Shown here piece after piece: positions 446 to 46,675 of a stretch of DNA of 64,000 nt. Within the stretch, counting starts at the first letter, position 1. Each line of letters starts with the position of its first letter. A program made the translations under genes and the position numbers. The notes beneath the pieces are model-generated. The model was not told the DNA's origin. It saw only the letters and a program-made list of their open reading frames with translations, and did no database searches. The DNA lies in NCBI GenBank assembly GCA_029856045.1, contig JAHQWG010000012.1:62001-126000 (forward strand). The letters are read 5' to 3'. The stretch comes from Promethearchaeia archaeon (GTDB taxonomy: Archaea; Asgardarchaeota; Lokiarchaeia; Sigyniarchaeales; SOKP01).

Positions 446-459
446 GGTGTATCCACATA
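446..459 (+). promoter_or_regulatory. Shine-Dalgarno GGTG followed by candidate ATA start codon
   Basis: GGTG at 446-449 is followed by seven bases and then ATA at 457-459, in frame with the PP-loop-like gene. The same GGTG plus seven bases spacing occurs before the TTG of mch, the TTG of the V4R gene (62481) and the ATG at 34358. No ATG, GTG or TTG exists in this frame between the upstream stop at 415-417 and residue 41 of the protein. Confidence 0.45.
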
Positions 460-19531: not shown

Positions 19532-19824
19532 GATAATTTAAATCTAAATTTATATAAAAATTATATTTTTTTATATTTTTATGTAAAAATCGTTAAGAAT
19601 TATATATGGATATAAGGAAGCTAATTGTACTTAGTCACAGAGGGATAACGGGTCGATTTATGGAATATTTATAATTTATTTTAGATTATAAAAAGAAATA
19701 ATAATATAAAATAAAAACTTTTAATTAAAAATTTTATAAATAACAAATAAAGATTTTTTTGTGTCTTTAATATTGTTGGAAAAAAAATAAAAAATAATCT
19801 AATTTTAGTTTAGAGGAAATAAAA

Positions 19825-20742
19825 ATGACTGAAAACGTTGAAGATTTGATTTCAAACAATAATAAAGATGAAATAGAAAAACAAGAAATTAAACTTCAAT
19901 TTCATTTTTATCTCACATTTTTTGCTTTTATATATTTAGGATCATATTTCTTACCTGGTATAATTTTAATGTTATTTATATTGCTATATTTTGTACCATA
20001 CTTTTTACAGACCACAAATTTTGTTTCTCTTTTTATAGAATTAAACCCCTTACTTGCTTTAACATTAATGCCTTTAATTATTATCAGTTGTTATTTAATT
20101 CATTTATTTTTTATAGGTTTATTAACTCGATGGTGCTGGAGTTTTACTGAAAAGAAGTCTCCAACAAAGAATGGGATTATTCCACGAAATGTTCCTAGCG
20201 ATACTTTAAACTATTACCATATTCGTTCATTTGTAATTAAATATGGGAAATTTGTATTCACTAAAGGTCTTTTTCCTTGGTTACTGAATTGGTATTATAA
20301 TTTCGTTGGATCAAATAAAATTGGAAAAGGTACAACAATTGAAGAGGAAATTGTTGGTGATAAATTTATTGATGTAGGTGAAGATTGTTATATTGGAGTT
20401 AATTCAGCAGTATGTTCACACACTGTCGAGGGAACTTTTGGTCGGATACCTTATTTTGAAATAAAACTTGGAGATAATGTTACTTGTACGGCATTTAACA
20501 TAGTCGGTCCTGGATGTGATATCCATGAGAACTCTTATTTATTGCCGTTAGGCTCTACCGGTAAAAACCAAACTACCAAGGGGAATAGTTATTATTTTGG
20601 AATACCTATGCGCAAGATTTTCACGAAAAAGATAATAGAATATTTAAAGATCTCTCAAGAAGATTTAGAAAAAGATAAAGAGTTAAGAAATAGACAAAAA
20701 AAACTTAAGGAAAAAATAGAGAGTGATGTATTATTAAAATAA
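19825..20742 (+). CDS. Membrane-anchored left-handed beta-helix (hexapeptide) protein, copy 1
   Basis: 305 residues. Two long hydrophobic segments (about 27-60 and 70-100) anchor the protein; the C-terminal half is a hexapeptide-repeat beta helix (IGKGTTIEEEIVG, FIDVGEDCYIGVNSAVCS, LGDNVTCTAFNIVGPGCDI) closing with YYFGIPMRK, the typical final coil of acetyltransferase-like helices. The tail from 265 is a charged helix. I see no obvious catalytic His in the hexapeptide coils, unlike maltose/chloramphenicol acetyltransferases. Start ATG with GAGGA upstream. It leads a tandem set of three related genes, so they probably act together, perhaps on envelope lipids or glycans; that function is inference. 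Confidence 0.75.
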   Translation: MTENVEDLISNNNKDEIEKQEIKLQFHFYLTFFAFIYLGSYFLPGIILMLFILLYFVPYFLQTTNFVSLFIELNPLLALTLMPLIIISCYLIHLFFIGLLTRWCWSFTEKKSPTKNGIIPRNVPSDTLNYYHIRSFVIKYGKFVFTKGLFPWLLNWYYNFVGSNKIGKGTTIEEEIVGDKFIDVGEDCYIGVNSAVCSHTVEGTFGRIPYFEIKLGDNVTCTAFNIVGPGCDIHENSYLLPLGSTGKNQTTKGNSYYFGIPMRKIFTKKIIEYLKISQEDLEKDKELRNRQKKLKEKIESDVLLK

Positions 20743-21662
20743 TTGAAGTTAATAATAATACAAGTGAAGGAGAAAATAATGAATTAAGTATATCGGAAAA
20801 TAATGAAAAGCATGATTTAATTATTGATTTTACTACAAGTAATGCTATTAGCAGAGTTGATATTAAGTTTTTAGTAATATATATTCCGATTTTTTGGTTT
20901 AGCGGTATATTAGTTGCGATATACTGGTATCAATACACTAAAAATCTCCCTTCAATTCAAGAGAACTGGATTTTCTGGCTTTTTCCGATTTTATATCTGC
21001 CTATTGCCATATTGTCCATGCTTTTCATTTTTATTTTTGGTTGTGTTTTTTTTAGTAAATTATTTTTAATAATTATTAATTTAATTCACAAACCAAGAGA
21101 GGGAGTATTTAGAACGGATTTAGGAGATAAGAATTTTGAGTTTTGGTGTCTTCGAACTAAATTAAAAAAATTAGTTATATGGTTACTGAGAACATGTCCT
21201 CTTCCTTGGATCGATATTATAGCTTTTAGATGGTTTGGAGTAAAAATGGATTTTTCAAGTCATCTTCTAGATTCTTGGTTTGATATTGAATTTATTAAAT
21301 TAGGACGTAAAGTAATGGTTGGACAGGGCTCAGTTGTTATGAGTTCAATGATAGTTGGTAAATATTTAATTATTAAACGAATTATTCTTGATGATTACAC
21401 AATAATAGGAGGAATGGCTTGTGTTTCACCAGGAACAATTACAGGTAAAGATTCACTTTTGGCTGCTATTTCTTCTACGATTTACAATCAAGTGCTTGAA
21501 TCAGAATGGGTTTATTTTGGAATTCCATGCATTAAATTTAAACCAAATAAGTTTACATTTAAAAAAAAAATGACTAAAAGGAGTGTGGATGAGGAGGAAG
21601 CGATTAATGTTGAACAAGAAATTAATATTGAAGATGATAAGAAAGAAAAATATAACTTGTAA
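20733..21662 (+). CDS. Membrane-anchored left-handed beta-helix protein, copy 2, with problematic start
   Basis: Homologous to its neighbours: two hydrophobic segments, then a beta helix (VMVGQGSVVMSS, IILDDYTIIGGMACVSPGTI) ending VYFGIPCIKFKP and an acidic tail. The frame is open and clearly coding upstream of the first conventional start (TTG at 21012), since the first hydrophobic segment aligns with copy 3, but no ATG, GTG or TTG is in frame from the upstream TGA on. An ATT at 20733, seven bases after AGTG and overlapping the end of copy 1, would give 309 residues, like the 305 and 304 of the other copies. Alternatively, the ATG at 20779 with an ideal GAAGGAG before it is the start and one base has been lost after it. 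Confidence 0.65.
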   Translation: MKIIEVNNNTSEGENNELSISENNEKHDLIIDFTTSNAISRVDIKFLVIYIPIFWFSGILVAIYWYQYTKNLPSIQENWIFWLFPILYLPIAILSMLFIFIFGCVFFSKLFLIIINLIHKPREGVFRTDLGDKNFEFWCLRTKLKKLVIWLLRTCPLPWIDIIAFRWFGVKMDFSSHLLDSWFDIEFIKLGRKVMVGQGSVVMSSMIVGKYLIIKRIILDDYTIIGGMACVSPGTITGKDSLLAAISSTIYNQVLESEWVYFGIPCIKFKPNKFTFKKKMTKRSVDEEEAINVEQEINIEDDKKEKYNL

Positions 21663-21678
21663 TTTGAGGGGTTAAAAA

Positions 21679-22593
21679 ATGTCAGTACCTACAAGCATGC
21701 GGGTTGGACCATTTACCCCAACTATTTTAGTTAAAAAGAAATATATAATCTTTTATATATTTCTCATCTGGATTTCAATGATCCCTATTTTATTAGAATT
21801 TTGGTTATATTGGCAATGTTTTTGGGATGCAATAAAACCATTATACTTCTATTTTTTTCTCCCGCTTCTCTGTTTTGTTATGTATATAACTGCAGTATTA
21901 ACATCTGTTCTTTTTGCAAAATTAATATTAGTTATTATAAAGGCAATTCTTAAACCAAAAGAAGGTATTTTTCTTAGAGACGCATCAGATAAAGATTATC
22001 GCTATTGGAGTTTAAGAAATACAGTTAAAAAATGGCCAATTTGGCTTTCACACAAATTTCCGTTTCCATTCCTTGATAATATTTGTTTTAAAGTTTTTGG
22101 AGTTAAAACTAAATTTTCAAATTCGTTGTTCGAGGGATGGGTAGATTGTGAATTCATTGAATTTGGAAAAAATGTAATTATAGGACAAGGAAGCATCATT
22201 CAATCCGCTTGTATTGTTGGAAAGTTGTTAATTATAAAAAAAACAATTATTGAAGATAATGTAAGAATTGGAGCACACGCTATATGTATGCCTGGCACTC
22301 ATATTAGAAAAAATAGTGTGTTAGCAGCAAATTCTGTTGCAACAGTTGGACAAGAACTTGAAGAAGGATGGATTTATGTTGGAGTTCCTGCAACAAAATA
22401 TAAAAAGAATAGATTCTTCGAAGATGGTTTAGAAAATGTACTTGGAGATGTAAAAGATGTTGAAAATTTAAGAAAAACGTATGAGAATTTATATATTAAA
22501 CGTTATGATAAACATCTTACTTATAAAGAGAGAAAAGAACTTAAAGAAGAAAGGAGAGTAGAAGAAAAAATAAGATTGGAGCAGGGTGTATAA
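21679..22593 (+). CDS. Membrane-anchored left-handed beta-helix protein, copy 3
   Basis: 304 residues. Hydrophobic segments at about 22-45 and 55-95, a juxtamembrane block KPKEGIFLRDASDKDYRYWS shared with copy 2 (KPREGVFRTDLGDKNFEFW), then a beta helix (NVIIGQGSIIQSACIVG, IIEDNVRIGAHAICMPGTHI) ending WIYVGVPATKYKK, and a very charged helical tail. GAGGGG precedes the ATG; the gap to copy 2 is 16 bases. The beta helix and membrane anchor resemble the C-terminal part of some NRPS-associated Pls/acetyltransferase-like proteins. Acyl transfer is possible but unproven, because the active-site histidine cannot be assigned with certainty (H in IGAHA is one candidate). Confidence 0.75.
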   Translation: MSVPTSMRVGPFTPTILVKKKYIIFYIFLIWISMIPILLEFWLYWQCFWDAIKPLYFYFFLPLLCFVMYITAVLTSVLFAKLILVIIKAILKPKEGIFLRDASDKDYRYWSLRNTVKKWPIWLSHKFPFPFLDNICFKVFGVKTKFSNSLFEGWVDCEFIEFGKNVIIGQGSIIQSACIVGKLLIIKKTIIEDNVRIGAHAICMPGTHIRKNSVLAANSVATVGQELEEGWIYVGVPATKYKKNRFFEDGLENVLGDVKDVENLRKTYENLYIKRYDKHLTYKERKELKEERRVEEKIRLEQGV

Positions 22594-29640: not shown

Positions 29641-29837
29641 AGCCTTATTATTTCTAATTATTATCCCTTTATATTCTCTTCTAATTTAAATTAGATATTC
29701 CTCTTGTACAAATTGTAATATTAAAAAAAGTTTATAAAAATCTCAAGAAAGTAAAAATTTATTATCCTTAGATTCTTTTAAAAAATAATTCTCTTAGAAT
29801 TAAAGTATTTAATATAATTAAAAATTTGGTTTTAAAA

Positions 29838-30104
29838 TTGGTAAAAGGAACAGTTAAATGGTTTAATAGCCGAAAAGGCTTTGGATTTATAAACTCTGAA
29901 GAGGGGAACGATGTATTTGTTCATTACTCAGCATTATCTGGGGAAGGGGATGAATATAAAACGCTAAACGAAAATGACAAAGTTGAGTTCGATGTTGTTC
30001 AAGGTGAAAAAGGACCACAAGCTTCAAACGTTGTTGTTACAGAAAAAGCTCCTCGACAATTCAATTCATACAATAAAGGCGGCAAACGAAATTATCGCTA
30101 TTAA
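29838..30104 (+). CDS. Cold-shock domain protein (CspA family)
   Basis: 88 residues from TTG at 29838. The five-stranded OB fold is complete: [17 protein letters not shown] includes RNP1 (KGFGFI), and DVFVHYSA holds RNP2. The last 20 residues are Arg/Asn/Tyr/Gly-rich ([11 protein letters not shown]), a likely RNA-binding tail. It binds single-stranded RNA or DNA, melting structures at low temperature. Csp proteins are common in bacteria but uncommon in archaea. An upstream TTG at 29826 is also in frame; the shorter form matches the usual [10 protein letters not shown] opening. Single gene with T-rich flanks. Confidence 0.9.
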
Positions 30105-45577: not shown

Positions 45578-45696
45578 AGATGGTATATATCAATAGTTGC
45601 CGGGGGTTTAGACGTAATATCAAAATAGATATTCTTAACTTCGGGAATTGTTTTTAACTTATTTTTTTCCTAAAAAAAATAAAATTATGGTTAAAT

Positions 45697-45712
45697 AAGG
45701 TGTAGAAAAATA
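45697..45712 (+). promoter_or_regulatory. Shine-Dalgarno AAGGTG followed by candidate ATA start codon
   Basis: AAGGTG at 45697-45702 is followed by seven bases and ATA at 45710-45712, in frame with the lipocalin-like gene. The spacing is identical to that at 446-459 and at several conventional starts. No ATG, GTG or TTG lies in this frame from the upstream TAA (45692-45694) to 45797. Confidence 0.55.
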
Positions 45713-46675
45713 GAACCAAAAACTCATGAATGTAAGACTGCTGATTCCGAATGGAATGAATCCTATTATTTTGTATTTTATGATAAAGAAATAAATTTGG
45801 GTGGAATGAGTCGAATTGGATTCAAGCCAAATAAACCAGAGGGAATGACATTTTTATTTCTCTTTTTGCCGGATGGTTCAGCTGCTGGATATCATCATAT
45901 TGAGAGCATTAAAGAATATTCAACTCCATTTAAAGTGGGTGGTATGGCTCATATATGTCAACCAGATGGAAAATGGAAATATGAATTTAATGGAAATATG
46001 ATTATGGTCAAGAATCCAGAAGATTTGCCGAAAGTTAGGGAACAACCAAAATTAATAGCGGGAGCTCATAAAGTAAAGATAAATCTCAATTTTGATCCAA
46101 TTAATGATGTGTATGAATATAGTGAAAATATGACTCCCGAGTCTTTAGAGCTTGGAAAAAAGGCGGGAGATAAACACTGGGAGCAAATTGCCAAGATCTC
46201 TGGGGATATTCAGGTCGGTGAAAAAAAATATCCTATTCGAAATACTCTTGGGCAACGAGATCACACTTATGGTATTCGAGATTGGACTGGTATAGGTAAT
46301 TGGTTGTATTATGTGGTTTGGTTTAATGAAAATTTAGCGATAAACCCAGCAGTTGTCATAGCTGATGATGGCAGATTATCTACAGGTGGTTTTCTTTTTA
46401 AAAATGGTCAAAATATTCCATTAAAAACGATTCGAATTATTGATCAACAATTTCGTGATGATAATATATTTCCAATTAGTTCAGAGCTTGAATTAATTGA
46501 CGCTTTAGATGATAAGCATATTCTGAAAGCACGTGTGAGATCAATTATTCCAGTTCCCTTTCAAGATAATGAGGGTAACCAATCTATCCTTATTCAATCA
46601 TTTGCAGATTACCAATTAGATGATAATAAAAATGGCTACGGATCATTAGAAACTTTAAGAAAAGTAAAAAAGTAA
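45710..46675 (+). CDS. AttH/CrtC lipocalin-like (DUF7064-type) protein, probable ATA start
   Basis: 321 residues if begun at ATA 45710. The upstream stretch includes EWNESYYFVFYDKE, which leads smoothly into GGMSRIGFKPN; this W-N-E-S-Y-Y-F block is how I know this family to begin, so it is real coding sequence and the shorter form from TTG 45797 would lose it. The rest alternates beta strands: FLFLFLPDGSAAGYHH, GQRDHTYGIRDWTG (with the family's conserved R-D-x-x-x-G-x-R-D-W), and a C-terminal half built like the first. The fold is a double lipocalin-like barrel; relatives include carotenoid hydratase CrtC and AttH. Substrate unknown, probably a hydrophobic molecule. Not obviously co-transcribed with neighbours. 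Confidence 0.72.
   Translation: MEPKTHECKTADSEWNESYYFVFYDKEINLGGMSRIGFKPNKPEGMTFLFLFLPDGSAAGYHHIESIKEYSTPFKVGGMAHICQPDGKWKYEFNGNMIMVKNPEDLPKVREQPKLIAGAHKVKINLNFDPINDVYEYSENMTPESLELGKKAGDKHWEQIAKISGDIQVGEKKYPIRNTLGQRDHTYGIRDWTGIGNWLYYVVWFNENLAINPAVVIADDGRLSTGGFLFKNGQNIPLKTIRIIDQQFRDDNIFPISSELELIDALDDKHILKARVRSIIPVPFQDNEGNQSILIQSFADYQLDDNKNGYGSLETLRKVKK

Follow-up and report, generated by a model that had tools for sequence, protein, structure and literature searches.

Genes without a standard start codon in the window

The window is a stretch of 64,000 nucleotides of Lokiarchaeal DNA (genome G000), in which the frame 45695-46675 opens behind an in-frame TAA (45692-45694). A scan of the window sequence finds no ATG, GTG or TTG in frame between this TAA and TTG 45797. 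The frame contains an ATA (45710-45712), which is followed by the codons GAA CCA AAA ACT CAT and is separated by seven bases (45703-45709) from the AAGGTG at 45697-45702. The first-pass annotation had reported both the missing standard start and the seven-base spacing, and both are exact on re-reading. The features of this gene and of two similar cases are listed in Table 1.

Table 1. Features of the window related to genes without a standard start codon
Feature	Position	Strand	Remarks
Shine-Dalgarno (SD) motif AAGGTG	45697..45702	+	7 nt ahead of ATA; kept in G000, G001, G002 and G004
ATA, predicted start codon	45710..45712	+	same in four genomes of the genus; aligns with the standard starts of homologues
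DUF7065/DUF7064 protein, 321 aa if read from ATA	45710..46675	+	Pfam matches; orthologues in the genus
GGTG, putative SD core of the first ATA gene	446..449	+	7 nt before ATA 457; GGTGCATCAAC-ATA in G001, G002 and G004
Gene with predicted start at ATA 457, 275 aa	457..1284	+	orthologues 87-88% identical
SD-like GAGAGTGA before the third, putative AUH gene	20719..20726	+	
Third gene without a standard start	20733..21662	+	first standard start at codon 95

The protein read from ATA 45710 belongs to the DUF7065/DUF7064 family, as it exceeds the curated Pfam cut-offs for both PF23213 (49.2 bits, cut-off 27) and PF23212 (35.7 bits, cut-off 24.7). Numbered from this ATA, the match to DUF7065 begins at residue 8 and that to DUF7064 at residue 192. 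Four members of the genus, the genomes G000, G001, G002 and G004, carry the gene, with proteins 93-94% identical to that of G000, and all four read AAGGTG(T/A)AGAAAAATAGAACC at its beginning. In G001 and G002 an in-frame TGA lies three codons upstream of the ATA, so that only AGA, AAA and ATA can precede the GAA. In G004 the DNA 5' of the SD differs, yet the SD and the ATA are retained. A mini-ORF, ATG GTT AAA TAA (ATGGTTAAATAA, 45687-45698), runs into the SD of the gene; it is present in G001 and G002 and missing from G004.

Fifty homologues from Lokiarchaeota, Thorarchaeota, Hodarchaeota, Bathyarchaeota and other groups were tallied. In 46 of them ATG, TTG or GTG stands at the position of the ATA, directly before a glutamate, and the start codons of the homologues lie 13-15 codons ahead of a conserved tryptophan. 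The remaining four, of which three come from named members of the genus and one, RDOE01000041, from another Lokiarchaeon, have ATA, and none of these four has a standard start upstream of the tryptophan. Since the codon is kept in the genomes of the genus and aligned with the standard starts of homologues, ATA 45710 is almost certainly the start codon of the DUF7065/DUF7064 gene. The proposal of the first-pass annotation that this ATA is a genuine start is thus upheld by its presence in four genomes, by the close upstream stop in two of them and by the 46 aligned homologues.

The first-pass annotation had also pointed to a second gene with the same GGTG-N7-ATA geometry, and this gene is indeed found in the frame 418-1284 (GGTG at 446-449, ATA at 457-459). 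Its first standard start is at codon 53, within a conserved GKDSIAAV core. The orthologues in G001, G002 and G004 retain GGTGCATCAACATA behind an in-frame TAG and have no standard start before the GTG inside this core. The GKDS motif is suggestive of a PP-loop ATPase; the 275-residue protein has no match to a Pfam family.

The third gene lies in the frame 20727-21662. Its orthologue in G001 is 94% identical from the same TGA, and relatives have an ATG near the position of ATT 20730/20733; the gene most likely starts at ATT 20733 or ATT 20730. A Pfam search gave no match of its own for this protein. The region 19798-22593 holds three consecutive genes of a related hexapeptide-repeat type, the middle one of which has no standard start and shares 16 bases with the end of the first. 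The window also encodes a cold-shock-domain-like protein (29772-30104), here in an archaeon, whose start is probably TTG 29838.

In-frame excess of AUH codons

Codons AUA, AUU and AUC (hereafter AUH) were counted in stretches of six genomes of decreasing kinship to the window: G000, the same genome (637 kb, about 19% of it), G004 from the genus (615 kb), G016 from the family (400 kb), G042 from the order (400 kb), G054 from the class (200 kb) and G056 from the phylum (200 kb). Non-overlapping, stop-to-stop ORFs of at least 100 codons were used. A codon was tested if it lay at least four positions before the first ATG, GTG or TTG, and an SD at the proper spacing was required. The same codons in the other two frames and the other in-frame codons served as controls. 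ATA codons directly before an ATG (e.g., C27 204567 and C27 354984) were dropped by the rule that the next standard start must be at least four codons downstream.

AUH codons behind an SD are in excess in frame in G000 (17/476, vs 4/660 out of frame and 21/2801 for the other in-frame codons), in G004 (20/431, vs 3/657 and 20/2502) and in G016 (9/299, vs 1/449 and 11/1732), the counts of G000 and G004 being not independent, since these genomes share orthologues. The first-pass annotation had held that the repeated geometry goes beyond sequencing error, and it is in fact enriched in the sampled genome sequence: in the 637 kb of G000, GGTG-N7/8-AUH occurs 12 times among 476 in-frame codons and never among 660 out of frame (p = 2.7e-5), compared to 5 of 2801 for the other in-frame codons (p = 2.4e-7). 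The spacing between GGTG and AUH shows a sharp in-frame peak, with 21 cases at 7 and 7 cases at 8, vs none at 7 and one at 8 out of frame; the AAGGTG-N7 of the DUF7065/DUF7064 gene matches this peak, as expected of a functional SD. The comparison with shuffled controls within the window gives a mild enrichment (12 matches to bare GGTG-N7-ATA vs 4.86 +/- 2.29), and these bare counts are weak evidence because many matches fall within genes.

No excess is seen in the 400 kb of G042 or in 200 kb of E. coli. The 200 kb samples of G056 (5/81 vs 1/138, p = 0.03) and G054 (4/99 vs 1/177, p = 0.06) each give a weak hint. In G000 the excess amounts to about 13 of 534 ORFs (2.5%, SD-linked cases only). 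Very likely this Lokiarchaeal family uses AUH starts habitually, and the counts suggest that about 2.5% or more of its genes initiate at AUA, AUU or AUC. The idea of ATA as a non-standard start holds and has to be widened to the set AUA, AUU and AUC. The scope first given to it was too narrow: the pattern is family-wide, and some genes (aIF1, E2) show AUH elsewhere in the class.

Start codon swaps and conserved proteins

The starts of 321 orthologue pairs were compared between G000 and G004, which are sister species. Several pairs have different codons at the aligned start, of the types ATG/ATT, ATG/ATC, ATA/ATT and ATC/ATA. They include a ribbon-helix-helix protein on contig C15 (ATT/ATG behind GGTGGTGA), C27 378973 and C27 274483 (both ATG/ATT), a small-GTPase-like gene (ATG/ATC), a coiled-coil gene (ATA/ATT behind AAGGTGAAAAACA) and C27 277204 (ATC/ATA). 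Apparent losses of the start at C15a 54972, C27 212851 and C15c 17690 were rejected, being alignment gaps around ordinary starts. In 36 prokaryote triplets, AUG switched to AUU in 1 of 61,358 ancestral AUG starts (PMC5622118), a figure based on annotated starts and to be compared with reservation, as annotation pipelines suppress AUU start calls.

In part of the genomes, the gene of the ubiquitin-conjugating enzyme E2, like those of the DUF7065/DUF7064 protein and of aIF1, has an AUH codon where the start is expected and lacks a standard one. The protein opens with (start)-REETDY or close to that. Among 24 homologues, the start position is occupied by ATG (9), TTG (4), GTG (1), ATT (9) or ATC (1) and by no other codon, and of the 10 with AUH, 7 lack any standard start further upstream in the frame. 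In the leader of the gene a GTG is directly followed by TAA. For order-level relatives (G042 L338 and G037 L336) the leader allows two readings: in that of G042, GAGAAGGTGTTTAAAATTAGAGAA, either the GTG is itself the start, or AAGGTG acts as the SD for a start at ATT.

Two further proteins place an ATT at their expected N-terminus. The ATT of NifU in G016 aligns with Met1 of the chain 4eb5_C, and the frame of a glycyl radical enzyme of G000, read from its ATT, enters the PFL profile at profile position 3. A GTPase-like frame on the minus strand of G000 (C27:178687-179877), conserved in G004, opens right behind a stop with FNPKPSSGKSTFLNSAC and shows neither a standard start nor an obvious AUH one ahead of the P-loop; it may be a split gene or contain an intron or a frameshift.

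The gene of aIF1

Of 58 genomes searched for the SUI1 family, to which aIF1 belongs, the 21 good ones all contain it. The start was read at 30 loci (L154-L183), that of G000 being C27:190775-191077. In 16 of these 30 genomes, the stretch from the in-frame stop to the zinc ribbon of aIF1 is free of ATG, GTG and TTG. Eleven of the 16 belong to the family of the window (genera g2, g5, g6 and g8) and have ATT or ATC behind AAAGGTTGTGA or a similar sequence. The others all have ATA: G003 from the genus of the window, G040 from the order, and G051, G053 and G054 from the class. In several of the 16 genes, the first standard codon lies deep within the SUI1 domain.

A GTG or ATG is present in G055, G056, G057 and G047. 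In G000, G001, G002 and G004 a GTG stands four codons ahead of an ATA, so that the start is ambiguous in the species of the window. In most of the family the AUH codon of aIF1 lies about 9 nt behind the GTGA in AAAGGTTGTGA rather than 5-6 nt, a spacing which exceeds the GGTG-N7 of the other AUH genes.

Judging from the sequences, aIF1 would begin at AUU, AUC or AUA in the 16 genomes without a standard start; in these 16 of 30, a fidelity factor is encoded from a disfavoured start. A work cited in PMC6237735 reports that in Sulfolobus aIF1 promotes discrimination against non-canonical starts, and eIF1 limits its own synthesis via an AUG in poor context, according to works cited in PMC6237735 and PMC3434475. 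By analogy, aIF1 might limit itself through its own AUH start, in a feedback like that of bacterial infC, a proposal that we put forward tentatively.

Initiator tRNA, 16S rRNA and possible mechanism

The initiator tRNA gene of G000 (C27:220557-220656) has the anticodon CAU, with an intron that immediately follows the anticodon loop; introns also occur in many further tRNA genes of G000. The tail of the 16S rRNA in G000 has the usual sequence GGATCACCTCCTT, and AAGGTG is complementary to the tail GGATCACCTCC found in this genome. Standard starts seldom carry an SD in these genomes (23 of 343 first ATGs in G000; see also PMC12993045). Many of the listed AUH starts have an SD, partly because the search required one, and the contrast between in-frame and out-of-frame codons is the fair measure.

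These elements can be assembled into a mechanism in which the SD helix, typically GGUG 7-8 nt before the codon, would, if strong, keep the AUH codon of the mRNA at the P site for as long as the ordinary initiator tRNA, with its CAU anticodon, needs to settle there by two base pairs. The mismatch at the third position would be tolerated under relaxed discrimination by aIF1. The product would begin with methionine (MEPKTHEC... for the gene at ATA 45710), and its yield would presumably be reduced. The AUA and AUU starts of S. aureus that have extended SDs reach 10-30% of the yield from AUG (PMC13009471), and a yield of this order may be expected here. SD-assisted AUH initiation by the CAU initiator tRNA under relaxed discrimination is the mechanism that we moderately favour. 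The reading as a whole (the ATA 45710 start, the use of AUH in the family and this mechanism, leaving the feedback aside) appears probable.

An AUH-started aIF1 would add a feedback loop that keeps the level of aIF1, and hence the stringency of start codon selection, low. Lokiarchaeia would then have an enlarged set of starts (AUG, GUG, UUG and AUH), held open by low, self-set levels of aIF1; this extension, drawn by analogy, is possible and somewhat doubtful.

Alternative explanations

The contigs are assembled from metagenomes and the DNA is rich in homopolymers, so a sequencing or assembly error could in principle have changed a true ATG or concealed the real start behind an indel. The same ATA is found, however, in four separately assembled genomes which differ elsewhere, and the same kind of start occurs in many genes and genera. 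At the level of the assemblies, the four genomes already refute the error for the DUF7065/DUF7064 gene, and we give this explanation a negligible probability. TTG 45797 or ATG 45806 would be the choice of a gene finder, as the first standard starts, and would leave the conserved upstream codons untranslated. The protein would then lose the conserved EWNESYYFVFYDKE and part of DUF7065, even though in 46 of 50 homologues a standard codon at the position of the ATA serves as the start; the same argument excludes downstream starts for aIF1 and for the glycyl radical enzyme. A downstream start is therefore extremely improbable. Initiation further upstream, at GTG 45700, at ATG 45687 with a frameshift, or by readthrough of the upstream stop codon, is suggested by the GTG contained in the SD and by the mini-ORF that precedes the gene. 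But TAG immediately follows GTG 45700 in G000 and G004, just as the GTG of E2 is followed by TAA, the DNA of the mini-ORF is missing from G004, which keeps the SD and the ATA, and the stop three codons upstream in G001 and G002 differs in kind and place from that of G000. This makes initiation elsewhere very improbable.

A different question is whether discrimination is relaxed at all, since AUH could be read by a modified initiator tRNA or by a second initiator with another anticodon. In tRNA-Ile2 a modified C34 (agmatidine) is known to read AUA, the tRNAs found are part of the set of the genome, and modifications are invisible in DNA. The sole initiator gene found, on the other hand, has a plain CAU, and the pattern GGGCTNATAAN{0,1}CC, which would miss intron-bearing genes, gave no further tRNA-like match in G000. 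Candidates for a tRNA with a changed anticodon were discarded, as the pattern matches besides the CAU initiator of G042 were not tRNAs. Moreover, AUU and AUC are used besides AUA, which one wobble modification would not explain. An altered initiator tRNA is consequently regarded as unlikely, and initiation by the ordinary CAU initiator is retained as the preferred reading.

Consequences and comparison with known systems

Gene finders commonly accept only ATG, GTG and TTG, so that the N-termini of Asgard proteins, or whole short proteins, are likely truncated or missed. Among the proteins likely to be affected are the ubiquitin E2 and those aIF1 in which standard codons occur only far inside the domain. 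If the proposed loop is real, it would be the archaeal counterpart of both the eukaryotic eIF1 loop and the bacterial infC loop, a feedback of start codon stringency on a SUI1 protein in a lineage close to eukaryotes. The self-control of a SUI1 factor through a weak start, as for eIF1 in eukaryotes, becomes testable in archaea.

Four genes of S. aureus (infC, ccpN, cvfC1 and citZ) start at AUA or AUU (PMC13009471). As in the Lokiarchaeal genes, the start has a strong SD, is conserved in relatives and was missed by annotation. That set consists of four genes in a bacterium under the control of IF3, whereas the present use would be at the percent level in an archaeon with aIF1. The tubulin AtubA, for which an ATT start was recently inferred (PMC13394414), is similarly an Asgard gene whose N-terminus requires an ATT with a ribosome-binding site at a plausible distance; it is a single gene noticed in cloning, without a genome-scale test, while many genes are concerned here. 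Compared to the SD-led initiation reviewed for archaea (PMC7531240, PMC6237735), the 16S tail, the SD core, the CAU initiator and the presence of aIF1 are the same; the review names AUG, GUG and UUG as starts and does not mention AUH. A literature search, with preprints and most subscription journals outside its reach, yielded no description of AUH use at the percent level in any archaeon, nor of an AUH-started aIF1. Single AUA and AUU starts with a strong SD were already known in bacteria, and the scale and the case of aIF1 appear to be new.

The infC gene of E. coli, which encodes IF3, starts at AUU and is autoregulated. The gene of aIF1 resembles it in that a start codon fidelity factor is encoded from a codon which that factor disfavours. 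SUI1 proteins such as aIF1 are not homologous to IF3, so the factor differs, and autoregulation is here a proposal. The autoregulation of eIF1 through an AUG in poor context was reportedly described by Ivanov et al. in 2010. It is closer in that the factor is a homologous member of the SUI1 family with a weak start on its own mRNA. In eukaryotes the weakness lies in a poor Kozak context around AUG, whereas in the Lokiarchaeal aIF1 it would lie in the codon itself, AUU, AUC or AUA.
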